Notes under the pieces: model-generated
Database searches by the model: none
Seen by the model: the letters and a program-made list of their open reading frames with translations, nothing else
Told to the model about the DNA's origin: nothing
Made by a program: the position numbers and the translations under genes
Assembly (NCBI GenBank): GCA_013299115.1
Contig: JAAFKA010000001.1
Coordinates: 248,001 to 312,000, forward strand
DNA length: 64,000 nt
From: Cytophagales bacterium
GTDB lineage: Bacteria > Bacteroidota > Bacteroidia > Cytophagales > Thermoflexibacteraceae
Reading direction: 5' to 3'
Shown: in pieces, positions 34,428-42,064 of the stretch
Position numbering within the stretch: the stretch's first letter is position 1
Layout of the letters: each line of letters begins with the position of its first letter

Positions 34428-34612
34428 CTTTCGGTTTCTCAAAACCGAAAGTTTATTTGCTTGCTTTCGGTTTCTCAAAACCGAAAGTTTATTTGCGTGC
34501 TTTCGGTTTCTCAAAACCGAAAGTTTATTGGTAGTGGTTTCGGTTTTGAGAAACCGAAAGTTTTGGTTTTGAGAAACCGAAAGTTTTGGTTTTGAGAAAC
34601 CAAAACCACAGT
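34428..34612. repeat. Hairpin array CTTTCGGTTTCTCAAAACCG, upstream of etfA
   Basis: Six hairpins are present: three with loop CTCA (CTTTCGGTTT/AAACCGAAAG arms), then three in the opposite orientation with loop TGAG. Spacers such as TTATTTGC are also repeated. The array lies between the Uma2 gene and etfA; a related array lies on the other side of etfA at 35611. Confidence 0.9.
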
Positions 34613-35610: not shown

Positions 35611-35805
35611 CTTTCGGTTGCTCAAAACCGAAAGTAAGGTGTGGTTTTGGTTTCTCAAAACCGAAAGTTACTGGGTGGTTTCGGTTTCTCAAAACCGAAA
35701 GTTACTGGGTGGTTTCGGTTTCTCAAAACCGAAAGTTACTGGGTGGTTTCGGTTTCTCAAAACCGAAAGTTACTGGGTGGTTTCGGTTTCTCAAAACCGA
35801 AAGCC
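35611..35805. repeat. Hairpin array with 34-bp period, downstream of etfA
   Basis: Six CTTTCGGTTTCTCAAAACCG-type hairpins occur here; five end exactly 34 bp apart, separated by TTACTGGGTGG. All have the same orientation. Frames that read through it give repetitive peptides (GFSKPK and similar) and are not genes. Confidence 0.9.
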
Positions 35806-37233: not shown

Positions 37234-37474
37234 TGTGGTGGTGAAAAGTAAATTTTATCCGTAAAAAAAACAGGCACAAAATATGTTTTGCGGACTGATA
37301 TTATGTATAGAAAGTTGGCAGAGTAAGTTCTGTTTGAATTATCGTGTACTAAAAAACATTATTTTCATTCACACCTCATTTTTATCTATTTTTTTGAGTA
37401 ATTGCAACCAAAATACCCTATGAAAGAGAGAAACCTAAAAAACTCCCCTTTGGGGTTGGGAGCTTGCCAATTTT

Positions 37475-40400
37475 ATGTTAGACCGTATCATTTTTTTTTC
37501 CATTCACAACAAATTAATTGTAGCTTTATTTACAGTTGCCTTAATTTTATGGGGTTCGTACTCCTTTACCAAACTCCCCATCGATGCCGTACCCGATATT
37601 ACCAATAATCAGGTGCAGGTCATCACCGTCAGCCCGTCGTTGGCAGCACAAGAAGTAGAAAGGCTAATCACTTTCCCTGTTGAATTGACTATGGCTACCA
37701 TTCCCCAACAAACCGAAATTCGGTCTATTTCTCGTTTTGGTTTGTCGGTTGTTACCATTGTTTTTACAGATGACACCGATATTTATTGGGCAAGACAGCA
37801 AGTCTTTGAGAAGTTGCAACAAGCAAAAACCAAAATTCCTACCCACATCGGCGACCCCGAATTAGCTCCTGTTTCTACTGGTTTGGGCGAAATTTACCAA
37901 TATACCTTACACGCAAAAAAAGGCTACGAACAACGCTATTCGGCTATGGATTTGCGGACAGTGCAAGACTGGATAGTACGCCGCCAACTCTTAGGCACAA
38001 AAGGCGTGGCAGACGTGAGCAGTCTGGGTGGCTACGTCAAACAATACGAAATAGCTATTCAGGCAGACAAATTGCGGAGTATGAATATCACCATTACCGA
38101 TATTTTTGCAGCTTTGGAACAAAACAACGAAAATACAGGCGGGGCTTACATAGACAAAACTCCCTACGCCTACTTTATTCGCAGCGAAGGTTTGGTAAAA
38201 AGCCTCGATGAAATAGGCAAAATTATAGTAAAAAATAACAAAAATGGTACACCTGTTTTGATTAAAGATGTAGCAACTTTGCAGTGGGGTTATGCCACCC
38301 GATACGGTGCCATGACCCGAAATTTTGAGGGCAAACAGGGCGAAGTGGTAGGGGCTTTGGTGCTGATGCTCAAAGGAGAAAATTCATCGGAGGTTATTCG
38401 CAATGTGAAAGAAAGAGTAGAGCAGATTCGCAAATCTCTGCCCGAAGGATTGGAAATTACAGCTTTTTTAGACAGAACAACCCTCGTCAATAACGCCATT
38501 CAGACCGTAGCCACCAACCTCATCGAGGGGGCATTAATCGTCATTTTTGTCTTGGTTTTGCTCTTGGGCAACTGGCGAGCAGGGTTTATTGTGGCTTCGG
38601 TCATTCCGTTGGCTATGCTTTTTGCCATTTCTCTCATGAATTTTTTTGGTGTTTCAGGCAATCTCATGTCTTTGGGGGCTATTGATTTCGGCTTGATTGT
38701 GGACGGGGCAGTTATTATAGTCGAGGCGGTGCTGCACCAATTGAATACACACACAAGCCCCTCACTCAGCCCCCCAACCCCCGAAGGGGGAGTTACGGAA
38801 GAAGGTAAAACTCCCCCTTCGGGGGGTTGGGGGGCTTCTCCCCCTTCGGGGGTTGGGGGGCTTTCAGGGGGGCTGAGTGGGTTACTTGTCTATCAAGCCG
38901 CCACCAAAATCCGCAATTCGGCAGCCTTTGGAGAGTTGATAATTTTGATAGTTTATTTGCCCTTGTTGGCATTGACAGGCGTGGAGGGCAAAATGTTTAA
39001 GCCTATGGCACAAACTGTAAGTTTTGCTATTTTGGGTGCTTTTATCTTGTCTTTGACCTACGTGCCTATGTTGTCTGCCCTGTTGCTAAAACCGCAAATG
39101 CTGCATAAAAAGACGTTTTCAGACAAATTAATGGATTTTTTTGCAAGGATTTACACCCCAATTTTGCTTTTTGCTTTGCGGTGGAAAAAAACAGTCATAG
39201 GTTTTACTTTGGTATTTTTTTCAATTAGTTTGTTGGTTTTCAGGCAATTAGGTGGTGAGTTTATGCCCGAATTAGACGAAGGAGATTTTGCCGTAGAAGT
39301 TCGGTTGCCACAAGGAAGTTCCTTAGATGAAACAGTGCGAATTTCGTTGTTGGCAGGAGAAATTTTGCGAAAAAACTTCCCCGAAGTGAAGGAAGTAGTG
39401 GGCAAAATTGGGTCGGGAGAAATACCAACAGACCCCATGCCCATAGAGGCTTGCGACTTAATGGTGGTGCTGCACGACAAAAAAACTTGGACTTCTGCCC
39501 AAACCAAAACCGAATTGGCAGAAAAAATGTCGGCAACCTTAGAAAACATCATAGGCGTAGAGTTTGGTTTTCAACAGCCTATCCAAATGCGGTTTAACGA
39601 ACTGATGACAGGGGTGAGGCAAGACGTAGCCATTAAAATTTTTGGGGAAGATTTGGAAATATTGGCAACAGAAGCCCAAAAAGTGGCAAATTTGGTGGGA
39701 AATGTAGAGGGCGTAAAAGATTTGTATGTGGAAAAAGTGCGAGGTTTGCCTCAAATAGTGGTGCAGTTCGATAGGGACAAATTGGCGTTGCATCAGGTTA
39801 CTGTGCAGGAGGCAAACCACGTGTTGAGTACGGCTTTTGCAGGTGGCGTGGCAGGTTTGGTGTATGAAGGCGAAAAAAGTTTTGAGTTGGTAGTCAGGTT
39901 AGACTCTTCGCAACGCAAGGAGATAGACCAAGTTCGCAATTTGTTTGTGCAGAATCGCAAGGGAGAGCAAGTGCCACTTGCCCAAGTAGCCACGATTGAG
40001 TTTCAGAGTAGTGCCAGCCAAATTCAACGCGAAGACACCAAACGGCGAATAACGGTTGCCTTTAATGTCAGAGGTCGTGATGTGGAGAGTATAGTGAAAG
40101 AAATAGAGCAAAAAATGGATAAAAAAATTAAATTTCCCGCAGGATATTACTCCACTTTTGGAGGGCAGTTCCAAAATTTACAAGAGGCAAAAAGTCGGTT
40201 GGCGGTGGCTGTGCCTGTTGCCTTGTGTTTGATTTTGGTTTTGCTGTATTTTACTTTCAATTCTATCAAACAAAGTTTGTTGATTTTCTCAGCAATTCCT
40301 TTGTCTGCCATTGGTGGCGTGTTTGCCTTGTGGTTGCGAGGAATGCCGTTTAGCATTTCGGCAGGCGTTGGGTTTATTGCCCTGTTTGGCGTGGCTGTTT

Positions 40401-42064
40401 TAAATGGAATAGTGTTAATTGGAGAATTTAACTACCTGAAAAACAGTGGTTTGCAAGGTATCAAAGCCATTGTTTTGCAAGGCACACAAACCCGACTTCG
40501 CCCTGTGTTGCTTACGGCTTTTGTGGCTTCTTTGGGTTTTTTGCCTATGGCTTTGTCTTCGGGTGCAGGTGGCGAAGTGCAAAAACCTCTGGCTACTGTG
40601 GTCATTGGTGGTTTGCTTTCGGCTACTTTGCTTACGCTGTTGGTGCTGCCTTGCCTGTATGTATATGTAGAGTGGGGAGATAGAAAGAGAAAAGTAGCAA
40701 CAGCTTTGCCAACTTTGTCAATTATTCTTTTACTTTTTGCACCTTTTATTACATTAGGGCAAAATCCAATGACAAATGAAAATTTGGGTGCAACAAAAAA
40801 TCCAACTGTTGCAACTTTGCCCACAACCCAACCATTGAACTTACAACAATTAATAGCTTTGGGTTTGGAGCAAAATACGGCTGTGAAAATGGCAAAAACG
40901 CAAATCAAGTTGCAAAAAAGTATCAAAAAAACGGCATCGGACATAGGCAAAACCAACTTTAATTTTCAGTATGGGCAGTACAACAGTTTTGTGAACGACA
41001 ATAGTTTGACAGTCAATCAAAGTTTTCCTTTTCCCACGGTGATTAGTCGCCAAGTAGAGTTGGCAAAGGCAAATTTGGTGTTGGCAGAATTGGACAAAAT
41101 CACGACTGAAAAAGAATTGGTACGTGCCATTAGGTTGGCATATTTTGAATATTTGTTTTGGGAGGCAAAGCAGAAATTGCTACAACAACAGGACAGCCTT
41201 TACAAAGAATTTTTGCGGGTGGCTACGCTGCGGTGGCAAACAGGCGAAACCAACCAAATGGCAAAAGCTATGGCGGAGTTGCAGTGGGCAGAGAGGGAAA
41301 ACTACAAAGCCCAAACCCAAACGCAACGCAATGTAAGTCTTACCAAATTGCAAACTTTGCTGCACACCACACAACCTTTGGTGGTTGAAACTTTTGCAAC
41401 CTTGCCACAACTTACTTTACAAAATAGTTTGGAAAATAATTTGCAAAATAATTTGCAAAACAATTCGCAACCTATTGAAAATCAACATTTTGACAGTACT
41501 GCACTTGCCAATAATCCTTTGTTGGCTTCGCTGAAACAAGAGGTGCAGATAAGCAACTACGCCATAGCAGCCGAAAAAGCAATGCTGTTGCCCGACATTA
41601 CTTTGGGATTTTTTAGCCAAACTTTGGTGGGCTATCAAACCTCTTTTGATAAAAAAGAAACCTATTATAATTCCCAAAACAGGTTTAATGGTTTGATAGC
41701 AGGTTTGTCTTTTCCCCTGTGGATACGCCCACACAAGGCACGCATAGAGGTAGCCAAAGTGCAGCAAGAATTGGCAAAACAAAATTTGGAATATGCTCAA
41801 TACAATTTGTCGGGAGAATATGCCCAATTTTGGCAGCACTACCAACAAAGCCAACAAACCTTGCGTTACTATGCACAAACGGCTTTGCCTACCGCCGCCT
41901 TGCTCTTGACCCAAGCCCAACAGACTTTTGTCAATGGCGAAATCAGTTATGTGGAGTATTTTCAGGCTTTGAAAAGTGCCGTAGCCACCCAACAGGCTGC
42001 TACGGAGGCTGTTTTTCTGAATAATCAAGTGGTAATTCAGTTGGAGTTTTTGAGGGGGGAGTAG
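37475..42064 (+). CDS. CzcA/CusA heavy-metal efflux RND pump fused to a TolC-like channel
   Basis: Residues 1-1080 or so form an RND pump: KLPIDAVPDITNNQVQVIT, the TM4 proton-relay block DFGLIVDGAVIIVEA, and the second TM bundle with LLTAFVASLGFLPMALS. After a short basic and hydrophobic link, an outer-membrane efflux protein with two coiled-coil repeats follows (QLIALGLEQNTAVKMAKTQI to the C-terminus). Such fusions are known in Bacteroidota and expel cations such as Co, Zn, Cd, Cu or Ag. An odd GC-rich insertion encodes about 43 Pro/Gly-rich residues in the loop after TM4. No czcB adaptor gene is adjacent. Confidence 0.93.
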   Translation: MLDRIIFFSIHNKLIVALFTVALILWGSYSFTKLPIDAVPDITNNQVQVITVSPSLAAQEVERLITFPVELTMATIPQQTEIRSISRFGLSVVTIVFTDDTDIYWARQQVFEKLQQAKTKIPTHIGDPELAPVSTGLGEIYQYTLHAKKGYEQRYSAMDLRTVQDWIVRRQLLGTKGVADVSSLGGYVKQYEIAIQADKLRSMNITITDIFAALEQNNENTGGAYIDKTPYAYFIRSEGLVKSLDEIGKIIVKNNKNGTPVLIKDVATLQWGYATRYGAMTRNFEGKQGEVVGALVLMLKGENSSEVIRNVKERVEQIRKSLPEGLEITAFLDRTTLVNNAIQTVATNLIEGALIVIFVLVLLLGNWRAGFIVASVIPLAMLFAISLMNFFGVSGNLMSLGAIDFGLIVDGAVIIVEAVLHQLNTHTSPSLSPPTPEGGVTEEGKTPPSGGWGASPPSGVGGLSGGLSGLLVYQAATKIRNSAAFGELIILIVYLPLLALTGVEGKMFKPMAQTVSFAILGAFILSLTYVPMLSALLLKPQMLHKKTFSDKLMDFFARIYTPILLFALRWKKTVIGFTLVFFSISLLVFRQLGGEFMPELDEGDFAVEVRLPQGSSLDETVRISLLAGEILRKNFPEVKEVVGKIGSGEIPTDPMPIEACDLMVVLHDKKTWTSAQTKTELAEKMSATLENIIGVEFGFQQPIQMRFNELMTGVRQDVAIKIFGEDLEILATEAQKVANLVGNVEGVKDLYVEKVRGLPQIVVQFDRDKLALHQVTVQEANHVLSTAFAGGVAGLVYEGEKSFELVVRLDSSQRKEIDQVRNLFVQNRKGEQVPLAQVATIEFQSSASQIQREDTKRRITVAFNVRGRDVESIVKEIEQKMDKKIKFPAGYYSTFGGQFQNLQEAKSRLAVAVPVALCLILVLLYFTFNSIKQSLLIFSAIPLSAIGGVFALWLRGMPFSISAGVGFIALFGVAVLNGIVLIGEFNYLKNSGLQGIKAIVLQGTQTRLRPVLLTAFVASLGFLPMALSSGAGGEVQKPLATVVIGGLLSATLLTLLVLPCLYVYVEWGDRKRKVATALPTLSIILLLFAPFITLGQNPMTNENLGATKNPTVATLPTTQPLNLQQLIALGLEQNTAVKMAKTQIKLQKSIKKTASDIGKTNFNFQYGQYNSFVNDNSLTVNQSFPFPTVISRQVELAKANLVLAELDKITTEKELVRAIRLAYFEYLFWEAKQKLLQQQDSLYKEFLRVATLRWQTGETNQMAKAMAELQWAERENYKAQTQTQRNVSLTKLQTLLHTTQPLVVETFATLPQLTLQNSLENNLQNNLQNNSQPIENQHFDSTALANNPLLASLKQEVQISNYAIAAEKAMLLPDITLGFFSQTLVGYQTSFDKKETYYNSQNRFNGLIAGLSFPLWIRPHKARIEVAKVQQELAKQNLEYAQYNLSGEYAQFWQHYQQSQQTLRYYAQTALPTAALLLTQAQQTFVNGEISYVEYFQALKSAVATQQAATEAVFLNNQVVIQLEFLRGE
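38757..38885. repeat. GC-rich palindromic element inside the czcA coding sequence
   Basis: CACTCAGCCCCCC on the left pairs with GGGGGGCTGAGTG on the right, and inner CCCCCTTCGGGG-type words form further hairpins. The element keeps the reading frame and encodes SPSLSPPTPEGGVTEEGK followed by more Pro/Gly-rich sequence. Its composition is sharply unlike the surrounding gene. A partial relative (ACTCCCCTTTGGGGTTGGG) lies just upstream of the gene near 37441. Confidence 0.85.

Follow-up and report, generated by a model that had tools for sequence, protein, structure and literature searches.

The GC-rich palindrome inside a metal-pump gene of a Cytophagales-like bacterium (genome G000) is, at a probability that we put near 0.7, a short, non-autonomous copy of a translated, non-splicing mobile element that encodes a DUF559 nuclease and lives inside genes. 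Beyond the pump palindrome itself, the larger finding looks like an in-frame element encoding DUF559, of which the pump copy is the short form. The original prediction dealt with the pump gene and its surroundings; new with respect to it are a large and mostly intragenic family of copies, a palindrome that bounds DUF559 in metH, and short and nuclease-bearing forms at the same sites across species.

In the product of the pump gene (Table 1), the Pfam domains were ACR_tran at residues 6-1065 and OEP at residues 1339-1513. As predicted, the gene contains a GC-rich compound palindrome, with inverted arms of 37, 25, 23 and 23 nt, and its reading frame stays open throughout. The sharp difference in composition was confirmed: the GC content was 66.7% at positions 38757-38885 compared to 42.7% in the remaining pump gene, and the highest value of any 129-nt stretch outside 38600-39050 was 56.6% in the window (the whole stretch of 64,000 nt that was analyzed). 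The related fragment described upstream of the gene was recovered as a degenerate half-unit shortly before the start codon (Table 1).

Table 1. Positions in the window of the pump gene and of the parts of its palindromic element.
Feature	Position	Strand	Remarks
Host gene, RND metal pump (ACR_tran) fused to OEP domain	37475..42064	+	1529 aa, open through the element
Whole translated palindromic element	38756..38887	+	44 codons, SPSLSPPTPEGG...GLSGLL; limits from comparison with relatives
Left outer arm of compound palindrome	38753..38775	+	pairs with 38867-38889
Half-unit 1 (reverse)	38768..38792	-	peptide SPPTPEGG
Half-unit 2 (forward, one extra G)	38811..38836	+	peptide TPPSGGWGA
Half-unit 3 (forward)	38838..38862	+	peptide SPPSGVGGL
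Right outer arm of compound palindrome	38867..38889	+	pairs with 38753-38775
Degenerate single half-unit CTCCCCTTTGGGGTTGGGAGCTT	37443..37465	+	shortly 5' of the pump ATG

The ends of the foreign stretch were defined by alignment with 29 related proteins. In this alignment the TM4 block precedes the element and VYxSAxKIRxSAAFGE follows it, and the loop concerned varies in length; in the pump protein, the flanking residues are VLHQLNTHT and VYQAATKIR. The predicted addition of a Pro/Gly-rich loop of about 43 residues held as far as an in-frame insert is concerned, its length being 44 codons. However, approximately 12-16 residues of close relatives (xLTQxQMDEE) are missing at this place, and the event is therefore an insertion plus replacement and no clean insertion. 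Two of the 29 relatives carry different GC-rich inserts in the same loop (the congener G001, in which the insert is palindromic, and G011). No such insert was noticed in the other 27, among which loop lengths differ, and DUF559 was seen at this site in none of the 29; the inserted loop is thus not a common property of the relatives, and many copies of the palindrome exist elsewhere in the genome. The TM4-TM5 loop of RND pumps is cytoplasmic, and the effect of the element in the pump is probably merely a longer cytoplasmic loop. Elsewhere in the window, tandem palindromes of the form TTTCGGTTT[C/T]TCAAAACCGAAA were observed at 34429-34567 and 35679-35800; a similar palindrome adjoins the Y1 (RAYT) gene L061, and a different repeat family surrounds this gene.

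The genome-wide search for further copies revealed 99 exact occurrences of the core CCCCCTTCGGGGG in the 5.5-Mb genome and one occurrence of the reversed pattern. Allowing up to three mismatches, a 23-mer gave 286 matches compared to 39 control matches. Sixty stretches of G000 were taken, 58 of them around listed copies; with L080 left out of the cluster counting, the remaining 59 (about 1.06 Mb scanned) contained 128 clusters with 222 half-units, a lower bound for the genome, as later contigs may hold further copies. Simple head-to-head pairs made up 52 clusters and single halves 54. On inspection of 35 short pairs, the simple hairpin was CCCCC-TTY-GGGGG, with a 5-bp stem and a 3-nt loop. Because several host genes are duplicated or neighboring copies share the flank window, the 128 clusters collapsed to 81 groups by their flanking DNA. 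Open reading frames (ORFs) of at least 80 codons enclosed 113 clusters, while four overlapped an ORF end and 11 were intergenic; since ORF density in the scanned DNA was 86%, genes are not avoided by the element. GC-rich DNA has few stop codons and this count may flatter the intragenic share; under a stricter rule, 100 of the 128 clusters had at least 40 open codons on both sides. The exact 21-mer was found in nine of 395 Bacteroidota genomes, and the palindromic unit occurs in genomes of other orders too; the 23-mer was unmatched in eight of the 12 family members searched.

Several groups of copies were observed within related genes. Thirteen copies lie at the same place in paralogous genes (L104, L105, L108 and L116; Rhs-like by eye) with the peptide TPPSGAGGL or APPSGAGGL, and the recurrence of the same half-unit peptide at the same place indicates that the element was duplicated with the gene; the copy at L108:10882 is frameshifted behind the element. 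Related genes of approximately 820-850 aa (L074, L078, L090, L097, L100 and L120) carry varied half-unit combinations at one N-terminal place, where L100 had no Pfam match and the L120 copy was closed in the long frame. A second, related palindrome type (CTCCCTCCCCTTYGGGGAGGG..., peptide TPSPLGRVGVGL) is nested in or lies beside the main type, for example in L083, L097 and L114.

The reading frame across the copies was determined with a codon model derived from long ORFs that contain no copy, and both flanks had to be confidently coding on the same strand. The frame was kept in 66 of the 71 confident clusters, where one third would be expected, and 63 of these 66 were free of stop codons; after duplicates were collapsed, it was kept in 49 of 53. 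With the same caller, 635 of 669 uninterrupted DNA segments were assigned the same frame. One edge cluster and 56 clusters with unsure coding flanks were left out of the full set, as were 28 unsure cases of the 81 in the collapsed set. Four of the five frame-changing cases (L065, L087 and L111 twice) were classed as intergenic or at an ORF end, and the fifth was the frameshifted paralogue L108. The three possible frames of the half-units were used 100, 24 and 1 times among 125: the common frame gives SPxTPEGG and TPPSGVGGL, whereas the almost unused frame would give arginine-containing peptides (LPLRGLGG, PPNPRRG). This frame bias is what selection on the translated product would leave, and it counts against removal of the insert before translation.

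In-frame hosts were leuS (two), valS (two), metH, an acetyl-CoA-synthetase-like gene (two), methylmalonyl-CoA mutase, a pyruvate-carboxylase-like gene, an icmF-like gene (two; NCBIfam score 1494 against a cut-off of 1500), an ISP-type restriction-modification (R-M) protein (two), an MmeI/Eco57I-like methylase, a peptidase/ABC exporter (two) and a sortilin/BNR-repeat protein (six), among others. In an alignment of 72 leuS relatives, from which eight of 80 loci had been left out for ORF length, 68 had no residue at the first site and 48 had at most one residue at the second. The valS open frame at L114:7395-10955 also has an RloB-like domain upstream (residues 28-227), representing a fusion or a missed start.

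These results support a translated palindromic element that is RPE-like in behavior, and the predicted resemblance to the palindromic elements of Rickettsia is upheld in this sense. RPEs (Ogata, Claverie) are described, where cited in PMC3733652, as short palindromic repeats that lie in frame in many unrelated protein genes and are translated. The G000 element likewise consists of translated palindromes kept in frame inside many unrelated genes, but it belongs to another phylum, and its long form, which has ends of the same type, carries a nuclease; the likeness drawn here is one of behavior.

We further examined the nuclease form. PF04480 (DUF559, Vsr-like) had a single match in G000, in frame inside metH (residues 288-396 of 1456), with copies of the pump-type palindrome on both sides. 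DUF559 is sequence-related to the solved endonuclease-like protein 3hrl (E 6.5e-18). It was present in 15 of 30 chosen genomes, where the nine strongest matches lay in frames of 817-1257 aa, and at E<=1e-10 in 163 of the 395 Bacteroidota genomes sampled. Of the 150 DUF559 matches listed, 51 had a surrounding ORF of 297 aa or more, and for 38 the ORF reached 800 aa or more. In-frame copies were found in metH (one linker site, eight genomes), leuS (two sites), recG (four genomes), hsdR (five), mutS and ISP-type R-M proteins, with one host of each of these confirmed by Pfam. Further copies lay in hsdM-like, UvrD-like, AddA-like and N6-methylase-like proteins, named by eye, and in icmF-like proteins homologous by BLAST to the G000 icmF-like gene. 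Most in-frame copies were bounded by palindrome-derived peptides. Among 80 leuS loci, that of Nonlabens antarcticus JCM 14068 (L226) was the sole one with DUF559. A plasmid search returned 40 records with DUF559 relatives.

The comparison set comprised 71 distinct DUF559 copies, without the weak loci L274-L279; 52 were embedded, a proportion enriched by choice (40 regions were selected mainly for long ORFs) and not a frequency. Twelve alignment columns were identical in all 52 embedded copies, as expected if the putative nuclease stays functional. An intein splicing (Hint) domain was found in none of the seven DUF559 hosts scanned by Pfam, and the intein explanation was rejected on this basis; in the intein control L287, Intein_splicing was detected, below its curated cut-off. 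L287 (G139) is a phage-like protein with an apparent true intein that carries a DUF559-like nuclease, in contrast to the non-splicing insertions.

Inteins with homing endonucleases place a nuclease in frame in conserved host proteins, with related copies at the same site across species. The DUF559 form shares the in-frame nuclease, the conserved hosts and the same sites across species, and differs in that no splicing domain was seen in the seven hosts scanned. PMC11855218 describes a non-splicing insertion of the ShiLan type in a phage methylase, with an HNH nuclease hidden out of the host frame. It resembles the DUF559 form as an in-frame insertion with a homing-type nuclease and no detectable splicing domain, whereas DUF559 is in the host frame, lies between palindromes and has many short relatives. 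The literature surveyed, of which subscription papers formed little part, held in the portions consulted nothing matching a DUF559 bounded by palindromes in frame inside genes, or a nuclease for RPEs.

Short and nuclease-bearing forms occur at shared sites. G000 has 100 in-frame sites, of which 14 are in proteins with a DUF559-bearing homologue among those retrieved; two were set aside as the two ends of its own DUF559 element, and 12 were used. Five of these 12 short sites lie exactly at the DUF559 position of the homologue, namely leuS site 1, leuS site 2, the metH linker, the ISP R-M protein and the icmF-like gene. Random positions in the same proteins coincided in 44 of 702 cases (6.3%; P about 5e-4, simple binomial). 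Insertion-tolerant loops could be a partial cause of the shared sites.

Within the family, seven members (G002, G003, G004, G006, G008, G010 and G012) had an empty leuS site 1, G000 and G001 carried the short form there, and the mixed assembly G009 had an empty as well as a full site; G005, G007 and G011 had no readable site. Four Flavobacteriaceae had longer site 1 loops of another kind. The empty and DUF559-filled G009 alleles (L362 and L269) are 93% identical over 281 nt, and both contigs end at or near the site; they probably represent two strains. No exact element ends, target-site duplication or clean empty site at the nucleotide level emerged from this closest pair. The palindrome that encloses DUF559 in mutS of G001 recurs there as the short inserts of leuS and of the matching pump loop. 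The short form therefore shares its ends with a longer enzyme-coding element in one genome, a MITE-like trait seen in G000 metH and in G001 mutS compared to leuS and the pump. Occasional in-frame insertions are reported for Coxiella MITEs in PMC5896051.

In the tree, which is weak in detail as it rests on few columns, DUF559 copies grouped largely by host site across families and classes. The metH group (100/95) included the G000 copy, which has a different position in metH, as well as a single row from a different host (L343). The recG copies formed a group (99/96), and so did four of the five hsdR rows (99/98), with L349 placed elsewhere. By sequence relationship, grouping by site resembles that of site-specific homing endonucleases; vertical inheritance at each site may be an alternative cause. 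The G009 leuS DUF559 grouped (99/97) with copies from mutS and UvrD-like hosts of its own order and apart from those in leuS of Flavobacteriaceae, which points to an independent arrival at this leuS site.

Other origins of the palindromes were weighed. A drifting low-complexity loop or an assembly artefact, with no mobile element, would fit the varying TM4-TM5 loop length among pump relatives, but dozens of unrelated genes and contigs contain the sequence exactly or almost exactly, and the same unit is present in other orders, which leaves this explanation with hardly any credibility; it was ruled out by copy number. The copies may also be ordinary REP/REPIN-like palindromes that tolerate translation and are moved in trans by a Y1 (RAYT) transposase, with DUF559 unrelated. 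According to PMC3733652, intragenic REPs are known, CGTC REPs are reported without a dedicated transposase, and GTAG/CGTC REPs share with the G000 element hairpin units, head-to-head pairs and some locations inside genes. Three Y1_Tnp genes are present in G000, and at least one in 11 of the 12 element-bearing or related genomes searched. GTAG/CGTC REPs are described in PMC3733652 as mostly intergenic, whereas the G000 element is mostly in ORFs (113 of 128 clusters, above), and the hairpin of CGTC REPs has an 8-9 bp stem with a 4-5 nt loop compared to the 5 bp and 3 nt of the element. The tag of CGTC REPs sits at the hairpin end; CGTC within 14 nt upstream was found at only 69 of the 222 half-units, though these also speak for a REP-like origin. 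Among 30 Y1 loci examined (of 39 listed matches), three had a core-like hairpin within 600 nt; the 25-mer element was in none of those three, and the hairpins near two of them belonged to other repeat families. No Y1 gene at the 30 loci was bounded by the element, for which RAYT was rejected as its mover. Moreover, G253 has the element and no Y1 match, and a Y1 mover leaves the sites in common with DUF559 unexplained. We consider a Y1 origin quite improbable.

It is also conceivable, if unlikely in our judgment, that the palindromes came first and that DUF559 is a homing-type passenger inserting into them and no engine for the short elements. Short copies far outnumber DUF559 in G000 (128 clusters and one match), and the grouping of DUF559 copies, mostly by host site, is what one would expect of passengers that are inherited or site-specific. 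The flanks of DUF559 bear on this point. Inverted repeats flanked 30 of 50 embedded and 11 of 17 standalone copies, compared to 10% of 1340 mismatched pairs and 1.2% of 335 shuffles (four of the 71 copies were dropped for too little flank). Standalone genes, too, are thus often enclosed by inverted repeats, and the match within elements exceeds that of mismatched pairs; ends and nuclease therefore seem to belong together. Y1 genes score similarly, with 12 of 28 at or above 14, so that the generic score proves little alone. Several observations count against the preferred reading, among them that no DUF559 was seen at the pump site in the 29 relatives and that inverted repeats flank many but not all embedded copies. 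Moreover, at 12 DUF559 loci from genomes that have the element or are close to such genomes, the pump-type palindrome itself was within 300 nt on both sides at four, on one side at two and on neither side at six, although other palindrome types bound several of these. Of the nine genomes in which the exact 21-mer occurs, six also contain DUF559 at E<=1e-10. It was missing at this threshold in G021 and G406, with one copy of the 21-mer each, and in G105, with three; G406 had a weak match only, and G105 none at any threshold tried.

We return to the short form of a nuclease-encoding element as the preferred reading. Nuclease-driven movement is a candidate mechanism that we infer. DUF559 would cut either the palindromes or alleles that lack the element, and the element would be copied during repair, by homing or transposition. 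Short palindromes would be left after the nuclease part is lost, or be moved in trans by the nuclease. Insertion would probably be blind to frame, with frame-breaking insertions purged by selection. Since most copies found in G000 lie inside ORFs, in frame and free of stop codons, they form proline/glycine-rich stretches of the host protein. On a wider scale, and at what we regard as even odds, this may be a phylum-wide, splicing-free element in which DUF559 between hairpin palindromes enters loops of housekeeping proteins in frame, is produced as one of their domains and gives rise to palindromes without the nuclease, which spread as translated loops through dozens of genes; in that case, DUF559 would supply the mobility enzyme that translated palindromes, and perhaps CGTC REPs too, have so far lacked.

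Mobile DNA in bacterial genes is usually viewed as destroying the gene or being spliced out. In the present case, leuS, valS, metH and other genes retain it and are translated across it, and the long form appears to bring its own nuclease into the host protein. If the preferred reading is true, the translated palindromes known since the work on Rickettsia would gain a candidate enzyme, proline/glycine-rich stretches in Bacteroidota proteins would be explained and DUF559 would have a role. The movement of protein-coding palindromes would then become open to direct test.
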